Positions 2,028 to 16,781 of a DNA stretch of 64,000 bases are shown piece by piece. This DNA comes from Halopseudomonas xinjiangensis (GTDB lineage Bacteria > Pseudomonadota > Gammaproteobacteria > Pseudomonadales > Pseudomonadaceae). Position 1 is the stretch's first letter. Every line of letters begins with the position of its first letter. The notes under the pieces are model-generated. The model did not search any database and was not told where the DNA came from. It saw nothing but the letters and a program-made list of their open reading frames with translations. A program made the translations under genes and the position numbers. Location of the stretch: the NCBI GenBank assembly GCA_011050525.1, contig DRFO01000030.1, forward strand, positions 186,001 through 250,000, written 5' to 3'.

Positions 2028-2140
2028 TCTTATGCCTTTGGGTGCTTACTCGGCGCATCCGATAGGCTTGGCATTGCGCGGACGCAGCGATGCCGGTAGA
2101 TTGTCGCGCAAACTTACATGAGCCTTATCAGGAGTACGCT

Positions 2141-2758
2141 GTGGAAATCGCCTGCCTTGACCTTGAGGGAGTTCTCGTTCCGGAAATCTGGATCGCCTTT
2201 GCCGAAGCAACCGGCATCGCTGAGCTACGGGCAACCACCCGAGACGTTCCCGACTACGACGTGCTGATGAAGCAGCGTTTACGCATCTTGGATGAGCACG
2301 GGTTAAAGCTCTCCGATATTCAGGAAACCATCGGCACGCTCAAACCGCTCGACGGAGCGCCGGAGTTTGTTGACTGGCTTCGTGAACGTTTTCAGGTCGT
2401 CATTCTGTCCGATACGTTCTACGAGTTTTCACAGCCGTTGATGCGTCAGCTCGGTTTCCCGACGCTGTTGTGCCATCGCTTGATCACTGACGAAACGGGG
2501 CGTGTAGCCGACTACCAACTGCGTCAGAAAGATCCCAAGCGTCAGTCGGTTCTGGCTTTCAAGAGCCTGTATTATCGCGTCATTGCCGCTGGCGATTCCT
2601 ACAATGACACCACCATGCTGTCAGAAGCGCATGCGGGAATTTTATTCCACGCACCGGACAACGTGATTGCAGAGTTCCCGCAGTTTCCCGCGGTGCATAC
2701 CTTCGAGGAGCTGAAGCAGGAATTCATCAAGGCGTCGAACCGTCCTTTGGTGCTTTGA
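2141..2758 (+). CDS. thrH: ThrH, bifunctional phosphoserine phosphatase / homoserine phosphotransferase
   Basis: A HAD-superfamily enzyme of 205 residues. In Pseudomonas ThrH dephosphorylates phosphoserine and can pass the phosphate to homoserine, linking serine and threonine synthesis. Visible HAD motifs are motif I CLDLEGVLVPE (nucleophile Asp7), motif II VVILSDTF, the lysine of KDPKRQ and motif IV AAGDSYNDTTML. The start is a GTG at 2141, preceded by AGGAG at 2131-2135; the resulting N-terminus VEIACLDLEG matches the family, and the longer ORF adds an implausible leader. A copy of the 110-bp repeat begins 15 nt after its stop codon. Confidence 0.93.
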   Translation: MEIACLDLEGVLVPEIWIAFAEATGIAELRATTRDVPDYDVLMKQRLRILDEHGLKLSDIQETIGTLKPLDGAPEFVDWLRERFQVVILSDTFYEFSQPLMRQLGFPTLLCHRLITDETGRVADYQLRQKDPKRQSVLAFKSLYYRVIAAGDSYNDTTMLSEAHAGILFHAPDNVIAEFPQFPAVHTFEELKQEFIKASNRPLVL

Positions 2759-2772
2759 TAGCTGCGAGGGCG

Positions 2773-2882
2773 GTGGTGGCAGGTAATACGTAGCCAGGAC
2801 ACGCTGCGAGTACGTCCCTGTAAGCTCGGCGATGCCCATCCCTGGGCATCGACGGTCCTGTCTACGCATCACCTGCCAGCAC
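2773..2882 (+). repeat. 110-bp structured intergenic element, copy 1
   Basis: The conserved 62-bp core runs from GGAC at 2797 to GTCC at 2858. It contains a small hairpin (TACG-TCCC-TGTA, 2811-2822) and a larger one (CGATGCCCA-TCCC-TGGGCATCG, 2830-2851). Flanking arms of 24 nt (2773-2796 and 2859-2882) pair with each other at most positions, for example TGGCAGGT with ACCTGCCA. The copy sits in sense orientation 15 nt after the thrH stop codon. Confidence 0.88.
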
Positions 2883-2949
2883 CTGCGTACCTTCGAGCCG
2901 CCGACGCAAAAATCCACTTGGCTTGTATCCTTTGCGCACAACTGCGACC

Positions 2950-3059
2950 GCGACGCCGGGATTCAGCCTGGCTGGACCGTCTGCGCCCCGGGGATGGGCG
3001 CAGTGAGCCTACATGGATGTATTCACGGCGTGTCCAGACAGGTTGAGTGCCGGCGGCGC
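2950..3059 (-). repeat. 110-bp structured intergenic element, copy 2 (inverted, diverged)
   Basis: The core lies between GGAC at 2974 and GTCC at 3035 and reads in the consensus direction on the minus strand. It is the most diverged copy. Its main hairpin stem is CTGCGCCC/GGGCGCAG instead of CGATGCCC/GGGCATCG, so several positions changed on both sides together. The 24-nt arms again pair with each other at about 18 of 24 positions. It is sense with respect to pabB and starts 11 nt beyond the pabB stop codon. Together with copy 1 it fills most of the 312-bp thrH-pabB gap. Confidence 0.85.
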
Positions 3060-3070
3060 CACTCCCAAGA

Positions 3071-4399
3071 TTATTCAAGCGCCTCCATCAACACCCTGAC
3101 CTTGGTCAGGGTCTCCTGATATTCGGACTCCGACTCCGAGTCCGCTACGATACCGCCGCCGCCCCAGAGATACAGATTGTCGTCCTGATGCACCAGGGTG
3201 CGTATCGCTATATTCAGGTCCATCTGACCTTCACAGCCTATGTAGCCAAGGCTTCCGCAATACATGCTACGACGCACCGGCTCCAGCTCTTCAATGATCT
3301 GCATGGCGCGAATCTTAGGGGCACCTGTTATCGAACCGCCAGGAAAGGCGCTTGCCAGCAGATCCAGGGCATCGCGGCCGTGCGCCAGTTCGCCCGTCAC
3401 GCTGCTCACCAGGTGATGAACATTGGGGTAGCTTTCCAGCTTGAACAGCTCCGGCACCTGCACGCTGCCAATAGCGCAGGTGCGCCCAAGGTCGTTACGC
3501 AGCAGGTCTACGATCATCACATTCTCCGCACGGTCCTTGAGGCAGTCCTGCAAGTCCTCGGCCAGCGCCATATCCTGCTCACACGTAGCGCCGCGCGCCC
3601 TGGTACCCTTGATCGGACGCGTCTCGACCTTGCCGCCGATGACGCTCAGGAAACGCTCAGGGGAATGGCACAGCAAGCTGAAGTCAACATCCTCAATGTA
3701 GGCAGAGAAGGGAGTAGGGCATGCATTGCGCAGAAGCCGGTAAGCCTCCAGCGGATCGCCGCTGCAGCGGGCGCGAAAACGCTGCGCCAGGTTTATTTGA
3801 TAAGCGTCTCCGGCCAATATATAAGCCTGAATACGCTCGAAAGCAGCCTGGTACTCTTGACGGCTCTGCTCCGGTTCGAAGGAGCCATTCAGGCAAAAGG
3901 AGGAATCAAAGTCCCGTTGCCCCTGAACCAATTCGTACAGCTTGTTGCGCTCGGCTTCATCGATACCAGGATGGCAAACCAGCCACGAGCGTTGCAGCAC
4001 GTGGTCCGTTACCAGGCTCCAGGTATATAGGCCAAATTGCAGGGCAGGAAGCCGAACGTCGGTTTTGGCGCAGGCGGGTAACGGTTCAAGGTGTCGAGCA
4101 AAATCGTAGCTGATAAAACCCAGCGCGCCCGCACCAAAGGGCAGGGCAATTCCGTCCGGCCAGGCCGCAGGTCCAAGGTCTTTCAGAGCGTCTCGCAGCC
4201 GCTGCAGAGTTTCTGGTCCGGATTCTCCGGGCGCAGGTGTCAATACGGCCTGGGGGCCGGCGGACATTATACTGAATCGGCCGAACGGTTCGCCGGTCGC
4301 TGCTGAATCCAGCAGCACCGGGTTGCCGAGCTCACGAAGCCCGGCGAGCAGCGGCGCCGGCTCGGCAATATAGGGTAATGCTGTCAGGGAGTAGAGCAT
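3071..4399 (-). CDS. pabB: PabB, aminodeoxychorismate synthase component I
   Basis: Catalyses amination of chorismate to 4-amino-4-deoxychorismate, the first step of 4-aminobenzoate and folate synthesis, with ammonia from a PabA-type glutaminase. The 442-residue protein has the anthranilate synthase component I N-terminal region and the chorismate-binding domain with PIKGTRARG, DLLRNDLGR and AFPGGSITGAPK. The PIKGT lysine is the feature that separates PabB from anthranilate synthase. No pabA is in the window. It lies 16 nt downstream of the RimK-like gene on the same strand, so it may be co-transcribed with that unit. Confidence 0.92.
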   Translation of the reverse strand: MLYSLTALPYIAEPAPLLAGLRELGNPVLLDSAATGEPFGRFSIMSAGPQAVLTPAPGESGPETLQRLRDALKDLGPAAWPDGIALPFGAGALGFISYDFARHLEPLPACAKTDVRLPALQFGLYTWSLVTDHVLQRSWLVCHPGIDEAERNKLYELVQGQRDFDSSFCLNGSFEPEQSRQEYQAAFERIQAYILAGDAYQINLAQRFRARCSGDPLEAYRLLRNACPTPFSAYIEDVDFSLLCHSPERFLSVIGGKVETRPIKGTRARGATCEQDMALAEDLQDCLKDRAENVMIVDLLRNDLGRTCAIGSVQVPELFKLESYPNVHHLVSSVTGELAHGRDALDLLASAFPGGSITGAPKIRAMQIIEELEPVRRSMYCGSLGYIGCEGQMDLNIAIRTLVHQDDNLYLWGGGGIVADSESESEYQETLTKVRVLMEALE

Positions 4400-4415
4400 T
4401 GGCGGTTTGGCCTGA

Positions 4416-5426
4416 TCATGCCGGCTCGCTGGGCTCCGAGGGAGTTGTCGCCGCAGGGACGGGTTGACCGAAATGCCTCTGCGAGAATGCCATTCTTTCT
4501 TCCACAGTCTCGAGCCTGCCTTCCTTCTTCAAGGCAGCAATATGGTGCTCGACCTTATGACAGCGGTGTGTCAGACCTGCATCGTTGGCAATCTGTATAT
4601 TCAGCCCTGGGCGCGCATTGAGTTCCAGAATGAGCGGGCCCTTTTCTTCGTCCAGCACCAGATCTACGCCGATATACCCTAGCCCTGACAGCTCATAGCA
4701 AGACGTTGCCAAACGCATGAAACCGTCCCAATCCGGCAATTGCACGCCATCCACCGGGTTGGTGGTATCTGGATGCTTGGTGATCTTGCTGTTCAGCCAG
4801 GTGCCCTTGAGCGTGACGCCGGTTGTGAGATCTACGCCCACTCCGATAGCGCCCTGATGCAGGTTGGCCTTGCCGCCAGACTGGCGAGTAGGCAGGCGCA
4901 GCATGGCCATGACCGGGTAGCCCATCAGCACTATGATCCGGATATCCGGTACGCCTTCATAACTGATGCTTTTGAAAATGGGATCTGGCGTGACGCGGTA
5001 TTCGATGAGCACGCGGTCCCGATGGCCGCCCAGCGAATAAAGACCTGACAGGATGCTGGAAATCTGGTGTTCGATCTCTTCGTAGCTGATGATCTTGCCT
5101 GACACTGTCCTGTAGCGGCCCTCGAAGCGGTCGGCGATAACCAGGATGCCGTCCCCGCCAGCTCCCTGGGCTGGCTTAACTACGAAGTCACGGTAAGGTG
5201 CGACAATCTTCTGGAATCGATCGATATCCTTTTCGGTTTCGATTATTCCATAAAGCTCGGGTACATTGATCCCTGCCGCAATGGCACGTTCCTTGGTCAG
5301 GATCTTGTCGTCTACGACCGGATACAAATGGCGCTTGTTGTATTTCAGCACATAGTCGGCATTTCGCCGATTAATGCCCATGACCCCGTTGGCCTTGAGC
5401 GCTTTCCAAGTGTTCCACAGTAACAT
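4416..5426 (-). CDS. RimK-related alpha-L-glutamate ligase-like ATP-grasp protein
   Basis: A 336-residue ATP-grasp enzyme of the RimK-related family. The ATP-grasp elements are visible as FVVKPAQGAGGDGILVI (about 98-114) and the metal-binding LILELNARPGLNIQIAN near residue 280. Family members are predicted to join an amino acid to a peptide or protein with ATP, but the substrate of this branch is not known to me. It is 10 nt downstream of the 7TM transglutaminase-like gene and 16 nt upstream of pabB. The pairing with the 7TM protein is a recurrent genomic association, which suggests they work together at the inner membrane. Confidence 0.85.
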   Translation of the reverse strand: MLLWNTWKALKANGVMGINRRNADYVLKYNKRHLYPVVDDKILTKERAIAAGINVPELYGIIETEKDIDRFQKIVAPYRDFVVKPAQGAGGDGILVIADRFEGRYRTVSGKIISYEEIEHQISSILSGLYSLGGHRDRVLIEYRVTPDPIFKSISYEGVPDIRIIVLMGYPVMAMLRLPTRQSGGKANLHQGAIGVGVDLTTGVTLKGTWLNSKITKHPDTTNPVDGVQLPDWDGFMRLATSCYELSGLGYIGVDLVLDEEKGPLILELNARPGLNIQIANDAGLTHRCHKVEHHIAALKKEGRLETVEERMAFSQRHFGQPVPAATTPSEPSEPA

Positions 5427-5436
5427 CGCAGTCTCC

Positions 5437-6966
5437 TCAGCCCTGTTTGGTCAGCGCTTTGAAACGCATGAGTTCGGTCAGGCGGTAGCCGCGATAGCGA
5501 CCCATGGCCAGCATGAAGCCAACCAGTACCAGCAAGATGGCCGGGAAGGTGAAGAAGAAATAGGCAAGCACCGGGACGGACATCAGTAGATGCGCCAGGG
5601 TCGCGGCAATGATGGTACCCACGGCTACCTTGAACGAATGTCCGCCACCACGTTCTTCCCAGTTGATGGAAAGGCGTTCGATGGTCATGGTCAGGATCAC
5701 CATGGGGAACAGCGATACAGACAGGGCGCGCTCAATTCCCAGTTTGTGACTGAACAAGCTGATCGCCGCAATGACGATGACCACGAAGGTCAGCACGATC
5801 GACAGGCGAGGCAACATCTGCAGCTTCAAATGCTCGAGGTAGGAGCGTAATGACAAGCCCAGGGCCGTGATCAGTGTGAACAGGGCAATACCCCAGCCTA
5901 CCTGGGTTTCACGAAAGGCCAGCGAGATCAGGACCGGCGTGAAGGTACCTAGTGTCTGAATGCCGATCAGGTTACGCAGAACCAGAATTACCAGAACACC
6001 CACCGGAATCATGATCATTACCCGGTAGACCTGCTGCGCATGCAGTGGCAGGCCATACAGGGAATACTCCAGCAGTGCTGACGAGCCGTTATCGGTACTC
6101 ATCTTGGCCAATCGCAGAGCATTCATCTCGCTATTGTTGATGGTCACGTTGACACGACCCTGGCGACCGCCCTCCAGGCTGTACATTGGATTATCGCCAA
6201 TCCACCACACCATCCGGTTTTCTGGTATGCCCTGCTGCCCCGTTTCGGGGTGGAAATACAGCCACCGCTCGCCGTTATGGCTGCGCAGCCACAGTTCCGG
6301 CTCCTGGTTGGCAGTGGCCTCCAAGCGCACAGTGTGGACCAGCTCCAGAGGAATGCGGGCCTGGGACAGTAGAATGTCGATGACTCGAGCTTTGTCCAGT
6401 GGTGATGTCTGGCCGCCGAGCAACAACTGAACGTTATCGTCAGTGATATCGTTCACCCGTCGAATGGCTTCGGTAATAAAGGTTTCGATATCAGCAGAGT
6501 GTTGTCTGATAGGGTTGATCAGCGCATCTGCGGCAATCTGCTCTGGCCCCTCGAGGACAATCGGAACGCGTGGAGCTGGCGGCGGGACTGCAGCGGTCTC
6601 GTCGCTATATCGTTTGGTCAGAACCAGTCGATAGTAAAGCGTCTGAGGTCCGCTGGCTCGTCTTGCAGACCAGGTGACCCGGCGATTCCCGTCAACCTGA
6701 TTGATACTGACGCCATAATTGTTGGAAATGAAACTCTCATTCAGGCTGATGTAATCCTGATTCAGCTGCGGAATAAACATCTGCGCTTTTATTGGCACCC
6801 CGGCCGTCGCTTGAAACTCGAAGCGGGCATCCAGACTCCAGATGTCGTCGGTTTCATCTTCTTTTAATGGAATTTCCAGGACGTATATCTGGTAACCAGT
6901 AATCAGCAGACCCAGGCTGACCAGAATGGCAATCAGAATTTTAAGATGCAGGTTGATCGATTGCAT
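5437..6966 (-). CDS. Inactive transglutaminase domain fused to seven transmembrane helices
   Basis: A 509-residue membrane protein. Residues about 8-30 form an N-terminal transmembrane helix, then a soluble, probably periplasmic transglutaminase-like domain runs to about residue 285. The C-terminal part has several hydrophobic helices beginning at VYRVMIMIPVGVLVILVL and ending near residue 490. No clear Cys-His-Asp triad is evident, in line with the family name. The start at 6966 (MQSINLHLKILIAI) places the first helix at the N-terminus; the longer ORF adds 54 unlikely residues. It is the first gene of a minus-strand unit with the ATP-grasp ligase and is divergent from prpR. Confidence 0.83.
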   Translation of the reverse strand: MQSINLHLKILIAILVSLGLLITGYQIYVLEIPLKEDETDDIWSLDARFEFQATAGVPIKAQMFIPQLNQDYISLNESFISNNYGVSINQVDGNRRVTWSARRASGPQTLYYRLVLTKRYSDETAAVPPPAPRVPIVLEGPEQIAADALINPIRQHSADIETFITEAIRRVNDITDDNVQLLLGGQTSPLDKARVIDILLSQARIPLELVHTVRLEATANQEPELWLRSHNGERWLYFHPETGQQGIPENRMVWWIGDNPMYSLEGGRQGRVNVTINNSEMNALRLAKMSTDNGSSALLEYSLYGLPLHAQQVYRVMIMIPVGVLVILVLRNLIGIQTLGTFTPVLISLAFRETQVGWGIALFTLITALGLSLRSYLEHLKLQMLPRLSIVLTFVVIVIAAISLFSHKLGIERALSVSLFPMVILTMTIERLSINWEERGGGHSFKVAVGTIIAATLAHLLMSVPVLAYFFFTFPAILLVLVGFMLAMGRYRGYRLTELMRFKALTKQG

Positions 6967-7116
6967 TAGGGTTCTCGGCAACAGTTTAAGGCGACGACAC
7001 GCTGACTCGAGGCAGTAGCGTGGCAGCGAACTGGCCAGCATCTTAGCACGCCAGTTCTCGGCGACGTAGTGGGGTTGATGGTGGCACGGTAAATTCTCTC
7101 CACACAGTGCCTGATG

Positions 7117-7150
7117 GATTGTTGACAATCGAGTGGCGCGGCTTCATTAT
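7117..7150 (+). promoter_or_regulatory. Predicted prpR promoter with overlapping GntR-type palindrome
   Basis: GATTGT-TG-ACAATC at 7117-7130 is a perfect 6+2+6 palindrome containing TTGT..ACAA, which resembles FadR/VanR-class GntR operators. It overlaps a -35 box TTGACA (7122-7127). A -10-like CATTAT (7145-7150) follows after 17 bp. A repressor bound here would block RNA polymerase, which fits autoregulation of the prp operon by PrpR. Confidence 0.55.
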
Positions 7151-7201
7151 TCGAGCCGTTATCTGGAAATAATATTCATATTCAAGGCGGGTTGTTTACA
7201 A

Positions 7202-7915
7202 TTGGACGCTTCTGTAGATATTTCTCCTGTATTGACGCTCTCTGACGGTGCTTTTCAGCGCCTTCAGACGGCGATCGTGAAGGGAGAGATCGCTCCCGGA
7301 ACTCGCATCAGCGAGCAGTACCTGTCCACCACCTTCGGTATTAGTCGGGGACCGCTGCGCGAAGCTATCCGGCGGCTGGAAGGCCGGCGATTGGTCATGC
7401 GCGTGCCGCATGCCGGCGTTCGGGTGGTGTCGCTCAGCTACGAAGAGCTGATTGAGCTGTACCACGTGCGTGAAGCATTGGAAGGAATGGCTTGCAGACT
7501 GGCCGCCCAGAATATGACGGAGGATGAAATTCTCGGACTTCGCGAAGTATTGGCCACCCATGAAAAGCACAGCGGTCTCCAGGCCAACCAGTCCTATTAT
7601 CAACAGGAAGGCGATCTGGATATCCATTACGTGATTATTCAGGGGAGCAAAAACCGCGCCCTGAGCGACATGCTGCTCGGTGATCTGTATCACCTGGTAC
7701 GCATGTATCGCTACAAATTCTCCACCACGCCGAAGCGCCCTCAGCAAGCCTTTGCCGAACACCATCGAATCATAGAAGCCATCGCTGATCGTGATGGCGA
7801 GCTCGCGGAAATGTTGATGCGCCGCCATATCAGCGCCTCACGCCGCAACATCGAGCGTCGCATGCAAGAGCAGAGCGACGTTTCACTTCCTCAGGAGGGA
7901 AAAACTGATGTCTAA
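7202..7915 (+). CDS. prpR: GntR-family regulator of the methylcitrate operon (PrpR-like)
   Basis: A FadR-subfamily GntR regulator. An N-terminal winged helix-turn-helix contains [20 protein letters not shown]. An all-helical ligand-binding FCD domain follows, with RxxxE-type and histidine metal-binding positions ([39 protein letters not shown]). The gene overlaps prpB by 8 nt. The start is uncertain: no in-frame ATG exists before the DNA-binding domain. The upstream GTG at 7133 would lie within the predicted promoter, so I chose the TTG at 7202, giving 237 residues. The nearest candidate Shine-Dalgarno, AAGGCGGG near 7180, is rather distant. Confidence 0.8.
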
Positions 7916-8792
7916 AACCCCAGGTCAACGCTTCCGCGATGCCGTTGCAGAAGAGCATCCACTGCAGGTAGTAGGCGCAATCAATGCCAACCACGCGCTA
8001 CTGGCCAAGCGCGCCGGTTTCAAGGCGATTTACCTTTCGGGGGGTGGCGTGGCAGCCGGCTCGCTGGGCCTGCCGGACCTGGGTATCACCGGTCTGGATG
8101 ACGTTCTGACCGACGTGCGCCGTATCACTGATGTGTGCGATCTGCCCCTTCTTGTCGATGTGGACACCGGCTTCGGCTCCAGCGCCTTCAATGTAGCGCG
8201 CACCGTGAAGTCGATGATCAAGTTCGGCGCTGCGGCGATGCACATCGAAGATCAGGTCGGCGCCAAGCGTTGCGGCCACCGCCCTAACAAGGAAATCGTT
8301 TCGCAGCAGGAAATGGTTGATCGGATCAAGGCCGCGGTCGATGCACGTACCGATGACAGCTTCGTAATCATGGCGCGTACCGATGCGCTGGCAGTGGAAG
8401 GTCTGGAGTCTGCGCTGGACAGGGCGGCGGCTTGTATTGAAGCCGGCGCCGATATGGTGTTTCCTGAGGCTATCACCGAGCTGGATATGTACAAGCTGTT
8501 CGCCTCGAAGGTGAAGGCGCCGATTCTGGCTAATATCACCGAATTTGGTTCCACACCTTTATATACAACCGATGAGCTGGCTTCGGCCGACGTGTCGCTG
8601 GTGCTTTACCCGCTGTCTGCCTTCCGCGCCATGAACAAGGCCGCAGAAAACGTCTATACCGCCATTCGTCGCGACGGCTCGCAAAAGAACGTGGTCGACA
8701 CCATGCAGACCCGCATGGAGCTGTACGATCGTATCGATTACCACATTTTCGAACAGAAGCTCGACGCGCTATTCGCGCAGAAAAAATCCTGA
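7908..8792 (+). CDS. prpB: PrpB, 2-methylisocitrate lyase
   Basis: Splits 2-methylisocitrate into pyruvate and succinate, the last step of the methylcitrate cycle for propionyl-CoA. The 294-residue protein belongs to the isocitrate lyase/PEP mutase superfamily. It shows the catalytic KRCGH motif (residues 120-124, Cys122), the magnesium-binding LVDVDTGFG (Asp84, Asp86) and the [10 protein letters not shown] segment. The ATG overlaps the prpR 3' end and has a strong AGGAGGG ribosome-binding site, so translation is probably coupled. Confidence 0.95.
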
Positions 8793-8836
8793 ACCGGTCC
8801 GATCACGAATCGGCCTAAATAAGAAGGAGAATACTG

Positions 8837-9964
8837 ATGGCTGAAGCAAAAGTTTTAAGTGGAGCCGGCCTGCGCGGCCAAGTCGCGGGCAAGACGGCGC
8901 TGTCTACCGTGGGGCAAACAGGCTCTGGCCTCACCTATCGTGGATACGATGTTAAGGATCTGGCTGCTAACTGCCAGTTCGAGGAAGTTGCACACCTGAT
9001 CCTGAAAGGTCAGTTGCCTACCCAGGCGGAGCTGGAGGCTTACAAGGCCAAGCTGAAATCACTGCGCAGCCTGCCGCAGGCGTTGAAAGAAGTGCTGGAG
9101 CGCATTCCCAAGGACGCCCATCCGATGGATGTGATGCGCACCGGTTGCTCCATGCTCGGCAACCTGGAGACAGAAGCTGACTTCAACCAGCAGCAGGATG
9201 CCACCGACCGCCTGCTCGCCGTGTTCCCGTCGATCATTTGCTACTGGTATCGCTTCAGCCACGACGGTGTACGTATCGATGAGAATACGAATGACGACTC
9301 CATCGGCGCCCACTTTCTGCATATGCTGCGCGGCGAAAAACCCAACGAGCTGCACGAGCAGGTGATGAACGTGTCGCTGATTCTCTATGCGGAGCACGAG
9401 TTCAACGCGTCAACCTTCACTGCCCGTGTTTGCGCTTCGACCCTGTCGGACATGCACAGCTGCGTCACCGGTGCCATCGGCTCGCTACGTGGCCCGTTGC
9501 ATGGTGGCGCGAATGAAGCGGCGATGGATATGATCGAGCAGTTCAAGAATCCAGAGCACGCCGAGCAGGAAATCATGGGCATGCTGCAGCGCAAGGACAA
9601 GATCATGGGCTTCGGTCACGCCATTTATCGTGATTCCGATCCACGAAACGCAATCATCAAGGAATGGTCCGAGAAGCTGGCCGCCGACGTCGGCGATACT
9701 GTGTTGTATCCAGTATCCGAACGCGTCGAAGCCGTAATGTGGCGCGAGAAGAAGCTGTTTTGTAACGCCGACTTCTTCCACGCCTCGGCGTACCACTTCA
9801 TGGGTATCCCGACCAAGCTGTTCACGCCGATTTTTGTAATGAGCCGTTTGACTGGGTGGGCTGCGCACGTAATGGAGCAGCGGGCGGACAACCGGATTAT
9901 TCGCCCGAGTGCCGAGTACGTGGGTGAAGAGCCGCGGACTGTTAAGCCAATTGCTGAGCGCTGA
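8837..9964 (+). CDS. prpC: PrpC, 2-methylcitrate synthase
   Basis: Condenses propionyl-CoA with oxaloacetate to 2-methylcitrate. The 375-residue length and a start of the type KVLSGAGLRGQVAGKTALST are typical of PrpC rather than housekeeping citrate synthase, which is longer. Citrate synthase signatures are GPLHGGANEAAM (catalytic His), GFGHAIYRDSDPRN (catalytic His) and CNADFFHASAYHFMGIP (catalytic Asp). It follows prpB by 44 nt with an AGAAGGAG ribosome-binding site. A copy of the 110-bp element begins 27 nt past its stop codon. Confidence 0.95.
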   Translation: MAEAKVLSGAGLRGQVAGKTALSTVGQTGSGLTYRGYDVKDLAANCQFEEVAHLILKGQLPTQAELEAYKAKLKSLRSLPQALKEVLERIPKDAHPMDVMRTGCSMLGNLETEADFNQQQDATDRLLAVFPSIICYWYRFSHDGVRIDENTNDDSIGAHFLHMLRGEKPNELHEQVMNVSLILYAEHEFNASTFTARVCASTLSDMHSCVTGAIGSLRGPLHGGANEAAMDMIEQFKNPEHAEQEIMGMLQRKDKIMGFGHAIYRDSDPRNAIIKEWSEKLAADVGDTVLYPVSERVEAVMWREKKLFCNADFFHASAYHFMGIPTKLFTPIFVMSRLTGWAAHVMEQRADNRIIRPSAEYVGEEPRTVKPIAER

Positions 9965-9991
9965 AAAACGGTGATTTAGGACTTTGCACTG

Positions 9992-10101
9992 GCGGCGTTG
10001 TCGACCACCTGTTCTGGACACGCTGTAAATACATCCCTGTACGCTCGGCGATGCCCATCCATGGGCATCGCCGGTCCAGAACAGGCGATCGCCAACGTCG
10101 C
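9992..10101 (+). repeat. 110-bp structured intergenic element, copy 3 (prpC-acnD)
   Basis: The core runs from GGAC at 10016 to GTCC at 10077 and is nearly identical to copy 4. It contains the hairpins TACA-TCCC-TGTA and CGATGCCCAT-CC-ATGGGCATCG. The arms at 9992-10015 and 10078-10101 pair at about 20 of 24 positions, including CCTGTTCT with AGAACAGG. It is sense to the operon and separates prpC from acnD, so it would be part of a polycistronic transcript. Confidence 0.9.
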
Positions 10102-10203
10102 TTACAGCAATGTGCAACGGTCAGCTTCGATAATTCAAGGCAGGGGATGCGCAGCACTGCGCTTCAATGCTTCTGCCACTGATTCCTGATGAGTGTGATC
10201 TCA

Positions 10204-12798
10204 ATGAACACTGAATACCGCAAATCCCTGCCGGGCACTCAGCTCGATTATTTCGACACCCGTGCGGCGGTCGATGCCATCCAGCCCGGTGCCTACGACA
10301 AACTGCCCTACACCTCGCGCGTGCTGGCTGAAAACCTGGTGCGTCGCTGTGAGCCAGCGATGCTGACCGATTCGCTCAAGCAGCTCATAGAGCGCAAGCG
10401 TGATCTGGATTTCCCCTGGTTCCCGGCCCGTGTCGTGTGCCACGATATTCTCGGCCAAACTGCACTGGTCGATCTGGCTGGCTTGCGTGACGCTATCGCC
10501 GAAAAAGGCGGTGACCCGGCCAAGGTCAATCCGGTCGTGCCCACCCAGCTGATTGTCGACCATTCCCTGGCCGTTGAGCATGCCGGCTTCGAGGCGGATG
10601 CCTTCGAGAAGAACCGCGCCATTGAAGACCGTCGCAATGACGACCGTTTCCACTTCATCAACTGGACCAAAACGGCGTTCGAGAACGTCGACGTGATTCC
10701 GCCGGGTAATGGCATCATGCACCAGATCAATCTGGAAAAGATGTCTCCAGTGGTTCAGGTACGTGACGGGGTAGCCTTTCCAGATACCTGTGTGGGTACC
10801 GATAGCCATACGCCGATGGTCGACGCTCTGGGCGTGATTTCCGTCGGTGTCGGCGGGCTGGAAGCTGAAAGCGTGATGCTTGGTCGTGCTTCCTGGATGC
10901 GCCTGCCTGATATCATCGGCGTCGAGCTCACCGGCAAACTGCAGCCGGGAATCACCAGCACCGATCTTGTGCTGGCGTTGACCGCGTTTCTGCGCAAGGA
11001 GCGTGTAGTTGGGGCTTATCTCGAATTCTATGGCGAGGGTGCGAACAACCTGACCATCGGCGACCGGGCTACCATCTCCAATATGACGCCCGAATACGGC
11101 GCCACCGCGGCTATGTTCTATATCGACGAGCAGACCACGGACTACCTGACACTGACCGGCCGTGAAGCCGATCAAGTCAAGCTGGTTGAGCAGTACGCCA
11201 AGGCAACCGGGCTGTGGGCTGATACCCTGACCAACGTGGAATACGAGCGGGTACTGACCTTTGACCTGTCGAGCGTCGCACGTACGTTGGCCGGTCCATC
11301 CAACCCGCATGCGTTGCTGCCTACCTCCGAACTGGCCTCTCGTGGCATTAGTGGTGTGGTAGAAAACGAAGAAGGCAAAATGCCCGACGGCGCGGTAATC
11401 ATTGCCGCCATCACCAGCTGCACCAACACCAGCAACCCGCGCAATATGATTGCTGCTGGTTTGATTGCCCGTAACGCAAACAAGCTCGGATTGACGCGCA
11501 AGCCCTGGGTGAAAACCTCCCTGGCGCCGGGTTCCAAGACCGTGAAAATGTATCTGGAAGAGGCCAACCTGCTGGGTGAATTGGAAAACCTGGGATTTGG
11601 TGTGGTCGCCTTTGCCTGCACCACCTGTAATGGTATGAGCGGCGCCCTGGATCCGGTGATCCAGAAGGAAGTAGTAGAGCGCGATCTGTACGCTACCGCC
11701 GTGCTGTCGGGTAACCGCAACTTCGATGGCCGGATTCACCCCTACGCCAAGCAGGCCTTCCTGGCTTCGCCGCCGCTAGTGGTGGCCTACGCGATTGCCG
11801 GTACCATCCGTTTTGATATCGAGAAGGATGTACTGGGGATCGACAAGGACGGCAATCCGGTCACCCTGAAGGACATCTGGCCGAGCGATGAAGAGATCAA
11901 CGCTATCGTCAAGCAGAGCGTGAAGCCCGAGCAGTATCGGGAGGTTTATATCCCGATGTTCGACATCACCCGTGATGCCCAGGCGCAGACCAATCCGCTG
12001 TACGAGTGGCGTCCGCAGAGCACCTATATCCGCCGTCCGCCATACTGGGAAGGCGCACTGGCAGGCGAACGTAGCTTGAAGGGCATGCGGGCCTTGGCGG
12101 TGTTGGGGGACAACATCACCACCGATCACCTGTCGCCGTCCAACGCCATCATGATGGACAGCGCCGCCGGGGCTTACCTACACAAAATGGGTGTGCCGGA
12201 GGTCGATTTCAACTCCTACGCCACCCACCGTGGCGACCATCTGACCGCCCAGCGCGCTACCTTCGCCAACCCCAAGCTGCTGAACGAGATGGTGCAGGAA
12301 AACGGCAAGGTCAAGCAGGGCTCACTGGCGCGTATCGAGCCGGAAGGCAAGGTAACGCGCATGTGGGAGGCCATCGAAACCTACATGGAGCGTAAGCAGC
12401 CGCTGATCATCATCGCCGGTGCCGATTACGGTCAGGGTTCGTCCCGTGACTGGGCGGCAAAGGGCGTGCGCCTGGCTGGTGTCGAAGCCATTGCTGCCGA
12501 AGGTTTCGAGCGTATTCACCGTACCAACCTGCTCGGCATGGGCGTGTTGCCGCTGGAATTCCAGCCCGGCACTACGCGTCACACGCTGAACATCGATGGT
12601 ACCGAAACCTATGATGTGACCGGTGACATCACGCCGCGCAGTACCATGACTCTCGTCATTAACCGCAAGAGCGGTGAGCGCGTCGAGGTGCCGGTGATCT
12701 GTCGCCTCGATACGCAGGAAGAGGTGTCGGTCTTTGATGCAGGCGGGATATTGCAACGTTTCGCCCAGGATTTCCTGGAAGCGGAAGCGGTTATCTGA
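10204..12798 (+). CDS. acnD: AcnD, Fe/S-dependent 2-methylcitrate dehydratase
   Basis: An aconitase-family enzyme that dehydrates 2-methylcitrate; with PrpF it replaces PrpD. About 864 residues. The three cluster cysteines are visible in ITSCTNTSNPRNM and FACTTCNGMSG. The C-terminal swivel domain carries LGDNITTDHLSPSNAI and DYGQGSSRDWAAKG. I chose ATG 10204 because MNTEYRKSLPG begins like other AcnD proteins; the in-frame ATG at 10189 is also possible, and neither has a strong ribosome-binding site. The 239-bp gap from prpC holds one repeat copy and little else. Confidence 0.93.
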   Translation: MNTEYRKSLPGTQLDYFDTRAAVDAIQPGAYDKLPYTSRVLAENLVRRCEPAMLTDSLKQLIERKRDLDFPWFPARVVCHDILGQTALVDLAGLRDAIAEKGGDPAKVNPVVPTQLIVDHSLAVEHAGFEADAFEKNRAIEDRRNDDRFHFINWTKTAFENVDVIPPGNGIMHQINLEKMSPVVQVRDGVAFPDTCVGTDSHTPMVDALGVISVGVGGLEAESVMLGRASWMRLPDIIGVELTGKLQPGITSTDLVLALTAFLRKERVVGAYLEFYGEGANNLTIGDRATISNMTPEYGATAAMFYIDEQTTDYLTLTGREADQVKLVEQYAKATGLWADTLTNVEYERVLTFDLSSVARTLAGPSNPHALLPTSELASRGISGVVENEEGKMPDGAVIIAAITSCTNTSNPRNMIAAGLIARNANKLGLTRKPWVKTSLAPGSKTVKMYLEEANLLGELENLGFGVVAFACTTCNGMSGALDPVIQKEVVERDLYATAVLSGNRNFDGRIHPYAKQAFLASPPLVVAYAIAGTIRFDIEKDVLGIDKDGNPVTLKDIWPSDEEINAIVKQSVKPEQYREVYIPMFDITRDAQAQTNPLYEWRPQSTYIRRPPYWEGALAGERSLKGMRALAVLGDNITTDHLSPSNAIMMDSAAGAYLHKMGVPEVDFNSYATHRGDHLTAQRATFANPKLLNEMVQENGKVKQGSLARIEPEGKVTRMWEAIETYMERKQPLIIIAGADYGQGSSRDWAAKGVRLAGVEAIAAEGFERIHRTNLLGMGVLPLEFQPGTTRHTLNIDGTETYDVTGDITPRSTMTLVINRKSGERVEVPVICRLDTQEEVSVFDAGGILQRFAQDFLEAEAVI

Positions 12799-12875
12799 GG
12801 CTGGGCAGGGCGGTGTTGTTGCACCGTCGGCTTGCAATTTCGTAGAAGGCGCCGGTTAAACGGAGCTGCGAGTCG

Positions 12876-12984
12876 GCGATATTACCAACAGGTGTTCCGG
12901 ACACGCTGTAAATACATCCCTGTACGCTCGGCGATGCCCATCCCTGGGCATCGACGGTCCAGAACACTCTGCTGCCAATATCGC
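12876..12984 (+). repeat. 109-bp structured intergenic element, copy 4 (acnD-prpF)
   Basis: The core (12899-12960) differs from copy 3 at only two positions, yet its arms are different. The outer pairing here is GCGATATT (12876-12883) with AATATCGC (12977-12984), and the inner pairing is GTGTTC with GAACAC. It lies 78 nt after the acnD stop codon in the sense direction and about 90 nt before prpF. Confidence 0.9.
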
Positions 12985-16451: not shown

Positions 16452-16528
16452 GCGCCCGTAGCTCAGCTGGATAGAGCACCCGCCTTCTAAGCGGGTGGTC
16501 GCAGGTTCGAGTCCTGCCGGGCGTACCA
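16452..16528 (+). tRNA. tRNA-Arg (anticodon UCU)
   Basis: A 77-nt cloverleaf with encoded CCA. Acceptor GCGCCCG pairs with CGGGCGT. The anticodon loop CTTCTAA lies between CCCGC and GCGGG, giving UCU, which reads AGA/AGG. The T-loop GGTTCGAGTCC is intact. Confidence 0.96.
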
Positions 16529-16567
16529 ACGCACACTGGTAAGGATGTCTGAAGCGATAGTTGTAAT

Positions 16568-16644
16568 GGTGGGCGTAGCTCAGTTGGTAGAGCACAGGAT
16601 TGTGACTCCTGGTGTCGTGGGTTCGAAACCCATCGTCCACCCCA
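16568..16644 (+). tRNA. tRNA-His (anticodon GUG)
   Basis: A 77-nt tRNA including the extra 5' G(-1) that is characteristic of tRNA-His and pairs opposite C73. The anticodon loop ATTGTGA gives GUG. The T-arm GTGGGTTCGAAACCCAT is intact and CCA is encoded. It lies 39 nt after tRNA-Arg. Confidence 0.96.
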
Positions 16645-16651
16645 TTTTTCG

Positions 16652-16680
16652 AAACGCCGGACGGTAGTCTGGCGTTTTTG
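16652..16680 (+). terminator. Hairpin with T-run between tRNA-His and tRNA-Leu
   Basis: AAACGCC (16652-16658) pairs with GGCGTTT (16671-16677), extended by GAC/GTC, and a run of T follows. It could end the Arg-His transcript, in which case tRNA-Leu needs read-through or its own promoter. Confidence 0.65.
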
Positions 16681-16696
16681 TTTCAAGCCCTGTTTT

Positions 16697-16781
16697 GCGG
16701 ATGTGGTGGAATTGGTAGACACACCAGATTTAGGTTCTGGCGCCGCAAGGTGTGGGAGTTCGAGTCTCCCCATCCGCACCA
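16697..16781 (+). tRNA. tRNA-Leu (anticodon UAG)
   Basis: An 85-nt class II tRNA with a long variable arm (GGCGCCGCAAGGTGT region) and encoded CCA. Acceptor GCGGATG pairs with CATCCGC. The anticodon loop TTTAGGT gives UAG, which reads CUA/CUG. Confidence 0.96.

Follow-up and report, generated by a model that had tools for sequence, protein, structure and literature searches.

We describe a dispersed intergenic element of Halopseudomonas xinjiangensis, four copies of which (c1 to c4) lie in a 64-kb stretch of its genome (assembly GCA_011050525.1, contig DRFO01000030.1, positions 186,001 to 250,000; hereafter the window). Its structure, family, folding strand, loop motif and mobility are established, or nearly so, by the comparisons below: one strand is predicted to fold into a three-way junction with two GGA hairpins, and young copies are miniature inverted-repeat transposable elements (MITEs). 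In our judgement the chances are about even that the element is a MITE-borne RNA module whose GGA strand would capture a CsrA dimer and would likely serve as a mobile decoy. The four copies are as follows, with scores from a covariance model; sites are named by their fit to the Rsm motif CANGGANG.

2773..2882, functional (GGA-loop) strand minus: copy c1, core and inner arms; 91.5 bits
2797..2858, minus: c1 62-bp core
2830..2851, minus: c1 hairpin B; loop C-AGGGAT-G, fits CANGGANG
2811..2822, minus: c1 hairpin A; loop C-AGGGAC-G, fits CANGGANG
2950..3059, functional strand plus: copy c2, core and inner arms; 73.7 bits; divergent pair with c1
2974..3035 (inverted), plus: c2 62-bp core
2981..3003, plus: c2 hairpin B; GGGGA in the loop, short of the full CANGGANG
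3010..3021, plus: c2 hairpin A; loop C-ATGGAT-G, fits CANGGANG
9992..10101, functional strand minus, antisense to the prp operon: copy c3, core and inner arms; 96.8 bits; in the prpC-acnD gap
10016..10077, minus: c3 62-bp core
10049..10070, minus: c3 hairpin B; loop C-ATGGAT-G
10030..10041, minus: c3 hairpin A; with the neighbouring base reads GTACAGGGATGT, fits the E. coli CsrA selection consensus
12876..12984, functional strand minus, antisense to the prp operon: copy c4, core and inner arms; 88.1 bits; in the acnD-prpF gap
12899..12960, minus: c4 62-bp core
12932..12953, minus: c4 hairpin B; loop C-AGGGAT-G
12913..12924, minus: c4 hairpin A; with the neighbouring base reads GTACAGGGATGT, fits the selection consensus

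Paired GGA hairpins and the folding strand

On the GGA strand, both hairpins usually present C-ANGGAN-G, a CsrA/RsmA site, with the two GGAs 22–24 nt apart. The Rsm site has been given as CANGGANG (PMC6849547), and the E. coli CsrA consensus obtained by systematic evolution of ligands by exponential enrichment (SELEX) as RUACARGGAUGU (PMC6692469). By our script's rule, 268 of 295 distinct copies have two GGA hairpins; CANGGANG occurs in hairpin A of 261 of these 268 and in hairpin B of 247, and GGA spacing is 22–24 nt in 261. The SELEX consensus is matched exactly in 24 of the 295. Because the copy finder demands TCC in hairpin A and thus selects on that hairpin, hairpin B is the fair test of the motif. 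Among 112 copies from loci picked by the hairpin-A pattern only, 81 keep CANGGANG in hairpin B; 90 of the 112 have two hairpins, with 34 different 4-nt B-stem sequences among them. Within the window, five of the six CANGGANG hairpins with stems of at least 4 bp fall inside the element, and the sole two pairs of such hairpins 15–35 nt apart are those of c3 and c4; 50 shuffles of the window in two-base blocks gave a mean of 2.04 hairpins and no pairs. As predicted sites, the loops thus have the paired ANGGA motifs, hairpin setting and C-G closing pair of CsrA/RsmA-binding RNAs.

All four copies were found where a first-pass annotation of the window had placed them, and the repeat is far above chance. 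That annotation gave each copy a 62-bp core between 24-nt arms. The cores are indeed bounded by GGAC...GTCC in all four copies, but the arms have no fixed 24-nt length: inner arms are mostly 20–30 bp and extend to 48 paired positions. The two hairpins it noted in each core are present, but differ in sequence between copies (copy 1, TACGTCCCTGTA; copy 2, TACATCCATGTA). The covariance model (R1), for which 31 genus copies were used, returned at E ≤ 1 over the 64 kb only c1 to c4, besides a 23.2-bit match to the other strand of c3, in agreement with the reported absence of copies from the remaining 51 kb.

The predicted three-way junction closed by the arms was likewise borne out. Folding of the 136-nt stretches around c1 to c4 gave z-scores of -4.99, -2.42, -8.89 and -3.83 against shuffles, with 0, 2, 0 and 0 of 200 shuffles folding equally well. 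Across the 31 genus copies, 90.2% of junction-pair cells are kept on the strand read in the annotation (shuffled mean 66.3%) and 95.6% on the opposite strand (shuffled mean 69.2%); the two pair sets differ slightly, the former including a wrong pair, 20-72, that is paired in 0 of 31 copies. The arms pair even though their letters differ from copy to copy, 24 of 35 pairs having changed on both sides in these 31 copies.

The mismatches that remain in the arms are one-sided. At arm positions 3–18 of the 295 copies, the strand read in the annotation has 164 A.C against 24 G.T mismatches, and 126 pyrimidine against 21 purine mismatches; read on the other strand, they turn into G.U and purine pairs. 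This asymmetry indicates that the strand opposite to the one first read is the folding strand, and it agrees with selection for the fold of that strand; a mutation bias bound to one strand could also be its source. The bias runs the same way in copies sense to both neighbouring genes (21 versus 2) and antisense to both (45 versus 6), and so belongs to the element itself. By set, the counts are 71 versus 2 in the genus, 78 versus 17 in the named genomes and 15 versus 5 in class copies (n = 79; p = 0.04, a weak effect).

Comparison of orthologous places shows that the core changes least. Drawn from 88 genus copies for which 330 nt was available to either side, 12 groups and 75 filtered pairs gave divergences of 12.1% for the core, 30.2% for the arms, 46.1% for the outer DNA adjoining the arms and 25.8% for the flank further out, which is partly coding. 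Pairs were dropped when fewer than 45 core positions aligned or when core divergence exceeded 30%, which favours conserved cores, and pairs within a group are not independent. A less filtered set of 139 pairs, including duplicates and non-orthologous repeats, showed the same trend less sharply (core 14.0%, arms 27.9%, outer 38.0%, flank 22.6%). For the c3 ortholog in genome G001, the core is 7% and the outer DNA 49% divergent. Arm pairs underwent 326 double changes from one Watson–Crick pair to another versus 168 single changes; of these single changes, 90 went via G.U as read on the functional strand and 18 via the opposite type. We rejected the possibility that arms are made anew from the target at each insertion, since near-identical arms travel with young copies; the arms therefore diverge after insertion while still pairing. 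At one place (L015/L137), the flank differs by 3% and the arm positions by 41%, and independent insertion or gene conversion at a single place is possible.

Mobility, distribution and relatives

Young copies are MITEs of 172–175 bp with GGAAACACTGATTAA ends, some of them flanked by 4-bp YTAR duplications. Both ends lie within three mismatches of GGAAACACTGATTAA at a length of 172–175 nt in 14 of 101 genus copies; three of the 14 have identical 4-bp flanks (TTAG, CTAA, TTAA), and among further copies with both ends four of eight do (TTAA, CTAG, CTAG, TTAA), the search being confined to duplications of up to 4 bp. The other 87 copies, including those of the window, have lost their ends or have different ones. 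One clean empty site was found: G029 has the element with TTAG on both sides, and its near relative G018 lacks it; a second site in G018 looks more like an imprecise deletion. Inverted ends, target duplication and the single empty site place these copies among MITEs of the IS5 group. Such MITEs have GGAA... ends and a YTAR duplication, YTAR being presumably the target of the IS5 group (a literature search gave no paper on this). Ends and duplication are alike here, but the structured core is shared with repeats having other ends. In G124, for example, it lies inside a larger repeat with TAACAGGCTGTTGAAAAA-type ends, so the core can occur with more than one set of ends. A scan of three genomes for inverted pairs of GRAACRYTGATYRA at insertion-sequence (IS) distance found no autonomous IS with the same ends; the one such pair, in G018, came from two adjacent elements separated by 1.4 kb.

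Two derivatives were seen alongside the standard unit. At L341-L344 (in G029, G018 and G027) hairpin A of a form of about 250 bp includes an additional 78-nt domain, which itself holds a varying, self-complementary hairpin. A derivative of about 79 bp (L345, G029:C1:1510000-1510400) has kept both ends and lost the core; its flanks are those of L343 in G018.

The patchy genomic family suspected in the annotation is confirmed. At E ≤ 0.01, R1 matches the H. xinjiangensis genome 16 times, and 28 of 37 genus genomes carry 7–70 matches; the remaining nine (G002, G006, G010, G013, G017, G022, G032, G033 and G034) have none, a contrast that can be used to seek a trans-acting gene. The family also reaches beyond Pseudomonas, where the annotation had believed similar strings to occur: 72 of 369 genomes of the class match at E ≤ 1e-4, this genome counted. 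In the phylum 17 of 299 genomes match at this threshold, all 17 from the same class, to which an unstated share of the 299 belongs. Scanning named genomes with a pattern gave at least 119 stretches; among the matches listed are Rheinheimera, Microbulbifer, Marinobacter, Alishewanella, Stenotrophomonas, Luteimonas, Methylomicrobium, Yersinia similis, Pantoea and Halopseudomonas. Identity to genus loci reaches 87% for P. saudimassiliensis and 77% for H. laoshanensis. A genome of the same order has six matches in direct tandem about 228 bp apart (G599:C1:94426-95646). Plasmid or phage origin was rejected, a 91-bp query from c4, the only copy tried, finding no match in either collection.

Judged by sequence, the core is homologous to YPAL/RU-2, a palindromic repeat of 167–168 bp in Yersinia (PMC2759123, PMC2229807, PMC2847712) that is mobile and present in 37–144 copies in 10 of 11 Yersinia genomes, with two copies in Y. 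ruckeri (PMC2847712 Table 3). The RU-2/YPAL sequence as printed (PMC2759123 Table 1b) aligns locally to the core of c2 and c4 and contains CAAGGATG and CATGGATG, two CANGGANG sites 24 nt apart. R1 matches three Y. similis loci at 50.3–53.8 bits, a comparison by model only, as the pattern finder detected no copy there. YPAL and the present element share the homologous core and fold, the two GGA hairpins 24 nt apart and tens of intergenic copies per genome. They differ in the whole unit: YPAL is 167–168 bp with its own ends, whereas young copies here are 172–175 bp with GGAAACACTGATTAA ends and so are not YPAL units. YPAL duplications are 3–26 bp, whereas here, where duplications of up to 4 bp were sought, identical flanks are 4-bp YTAR, and the arms differ from copy to copy, unlike those of YPAL. 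The YPAL passages available are silent on strand bias and CsrA sites.

No Rfam family falls on the element at gathering scores, the window yielding just three tRNAs. The Rfam model of Yersinia small RNA (sRNA) 224 (RF02770, Ysr224) aligns end to end with c1 and c2, at 19.3 and 19.4 bits, where the gathering score is 70. The annotation could name no described family; given the homology of the core to YPAL/RU-2, and weakly to Ysr224, the element partly belongs to an already named family. A YPAL-like MITE is a known kind of element; the present variant and the functional hypothesis are new.

Other systems are less close. TwoAYGGAY RNAs (RF01731) have two hairpins with A-Y-GGA-Y loops, for which CsrA binding has been proposed (PMC4333381); this family found no match in the whole window at its gathering score, nor up to E = 10 in the interval searched (2700–3150). 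The sponge RNAs CsrB, RsmX, RsmY and RsmZ likewise carry GGA hairpins and titrate CsrA/RsmA, but they are dedicated sRNA genes, whereas the element exists as tens of dispersed, likely mobile copies without a match at Rfam gathering scores. The nearest parallel to its pairing is found in GTAG/CGTC repetitive extragenic palindromes (REPs) and their RAYTs, also short dispersed palindromes in head-head pairs, among which head-head dimers predominate (PMC3733652). In contrast to REPs, the element is much larger, with a three-way junction, long arms and 4-bp insertion repeats, and its shared core has no GTAG tag.

Genomic setting and divergent pairs

The following genes adjoin the window copies.

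2090..2758, plus: thrH, left neighbour of the c1/c2 pair; NCBIfam TIGR02137
3071..4399, minus: pabB-like gene, right neighbour of the c1/c2 pair and convergent with thrH; NCBIfam TIGR00553, above cut-off
8837..9964, plus: prpC (2-methylcitrate synthase); NCBIfam NF009006
10189..12798, plus: acnD; NCBIfam TIGR02333
13029..14264, plus: prpF; NCBIfam TIGR02334

The copies lie between genes, as the annotation stated, with the correction that c3 and c4 are inside the prp operon. The right neighbour of c4, first taken as lysC, was replaced by prpF on the basis of its NCBIfam match. Elsewhere in the window, three consecutive tRNA genes occupy positions 16452-16778.

Relative to crude open reading frames (ORFs), the GGA strand is sense to both neighbours in 41 copies and antisense to both in 63. 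We rejected a host untranslated region (UTR) element on this ground, as the lack of sense bias counts against a simple UTR role. Plain terminators were also set aside: no T run was noticed beside the arms in the flanks viewed, and no dedicated terminator scan was run. Adjacent copies within 600 bp (n = 45, with orthologous pairs of different species counted separately and 25 of the 45 from the genus) have their GGA strands pointing apart in 38 cases, together in one and alike in six, against about 11 of 45 apart expected for random orientation. By this geometry, a transcript that crosses a divergent pair, whichever side it comes from, contains a single GGA strand, that of the distal copy. One divergent pair has stayed in the same place in as many as nine loci.

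Rearrangements involving such pairs were also encountered. Between L223 and L042, from two species, a segment of about 284 bp with a divergent pair is inverted relative to its flanks. L323 in G018 is a single hybrid element, half from each partner, where L312 in G029 has a divergent pair, and L022 in G027 resembles a fused half-core.

A predicted CsrA decoy and its alternatives

The presence of two similar loop motifs at a fixed spacing on the folding strand is best explained by a putative capture of CsrA. On this reading, the likely mobile DNA module would be transcribed and its GGA-loop strand would fold into the three-way junction with two predicted CsrA/RsmA sites, so that each RNA copy may bind one CsrA dimer. 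The effect would be titration of CsrA. An IS5-group transposase would move the element in trans, and the long arms may hold the junction together whatever the flanking sequence.

Several observations weigh against this proposal. Two GGA hairpins are lacking, by the script's rule, in 27 of the 295 copies; hairpin B of c2 lacks the full motif; and four copies with the 78-nt domain read CAGGGGTG in hairpin A and have lost its GGA. There is no sense bias to neighbouring ORFs, and in the prp operon the functional strand of both c3 and c4 is the antisense one. Titration leaves the 38 divergent pairs unexplained, and the Rfam Ysr224 family models the complementary strand. Co-occurrence with CsrA speaks for the proposal, but weakly, with genome size and kinship not controlled. 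The CsrA domain PF02599 is present in 74 of 79 genomes (71 element-bearing genomes of the class, seven of the genus including this one, and one genus genome without the element). With the eight genus genomes removed, and at 90% completeness or more, CsrA is found in 58 of 59 element-bearing and 58 of 68 element-free class genomes, the element-free sample being 79 of 297 such genomes. The only exception among the 59, G253 (98% complete, 270 contigs), has eight matches and no CsrA hit; the less complete G065, G126, G157 and G400 also lack a hit. In the open-licence literature, we found no link of CsrA to YPAL or any MITE, and the text of the YPAL papers checked does not mention CsrA. As far as its available text goes, the Rfam 12.0 paper treats CsrA and MITEs separately.

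Because the element shows no sense bias and its pairs are mostly divergent, a reading at the DNA level stays viable, and we assign it a limited probability: the same strand would fold as single-stranded DNA and be a substrate for a transposase or recombinase, like REP/RAYT or attC, with loops and junction as recognition marks and divergent pairs as the mobile unit. Folded single-stranded DNA tolerates G.T and G.A mismatches as well, so the mismatch bias also suits it. Moreover, the divergent arrangement recalls REP head-head dimers (PMC3733652), and YPAL targets span or adjoin dyad symmetry, with duplications of 3–26 bp (PMC2229807). However, this reading does not predict CANGGANG in both loops, and the ends that move are external to the core: in young copies they read GGAAACACTGATTAA, in some cases beside 4-bp repeats, as in a DDE-type MITE, and in G124 the core lies in a larger repeat with other ends.

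We think it rather improbable that the element is an ordinary structured MITE of the ERIC/NEMIS/YPAL type, whose long hairpin alone acts on neighbouring mRNAs through RNase III/E processing or stability with no role for CsrA. YPAL is reported to be expressed with upstream genes ("co-translated"), perhaps affecting transcript stability (PMC2229807), and arms of up to 48 paired positions would suit such a role, but generic hairpins have no need of ANGGA loops conserved at a set distance, or of a core more lasting than the DNA around it. A neutral inverted repeat, with arms kept complementary by template switching and a core conserved because copies are young or gene-converted, would explain why many arms are perfect over 30–48 bp, and hairpin-templated repair would also give more double than single arm changes. 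It leaves unaccounted both the strand-specific mismatch bias (164 versus 24) and the conservation of unpaired loop and junction letters across families of the class, and we consider it very unlikely.

If the CsrA decoy is extended to the whole class, transposable decoys would consist of a two-site RNA module carried on MITEs with unrelated ends, in up to 70 copies, that resets the level of free CsrA/RsmA across the genome, its divergent pairs being so arranged that a transcript entering from either side yields one CsrA-binding strand every time; we offer this extension tentatively and hold it to be doubtful. The present comparison joins a Yersinia repeat to a family spread over Gammaproteobacteria and gives its core a concrete proposed function that can be tested quickly. 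It also adds an example from bacteria in which MITEs that differ in their ends maintain one predicted structured RNA module. If the proposed function is true, the Csr/Rsm system, and with it biofilm formation, motility and metabolism, would be retunable by transposition.

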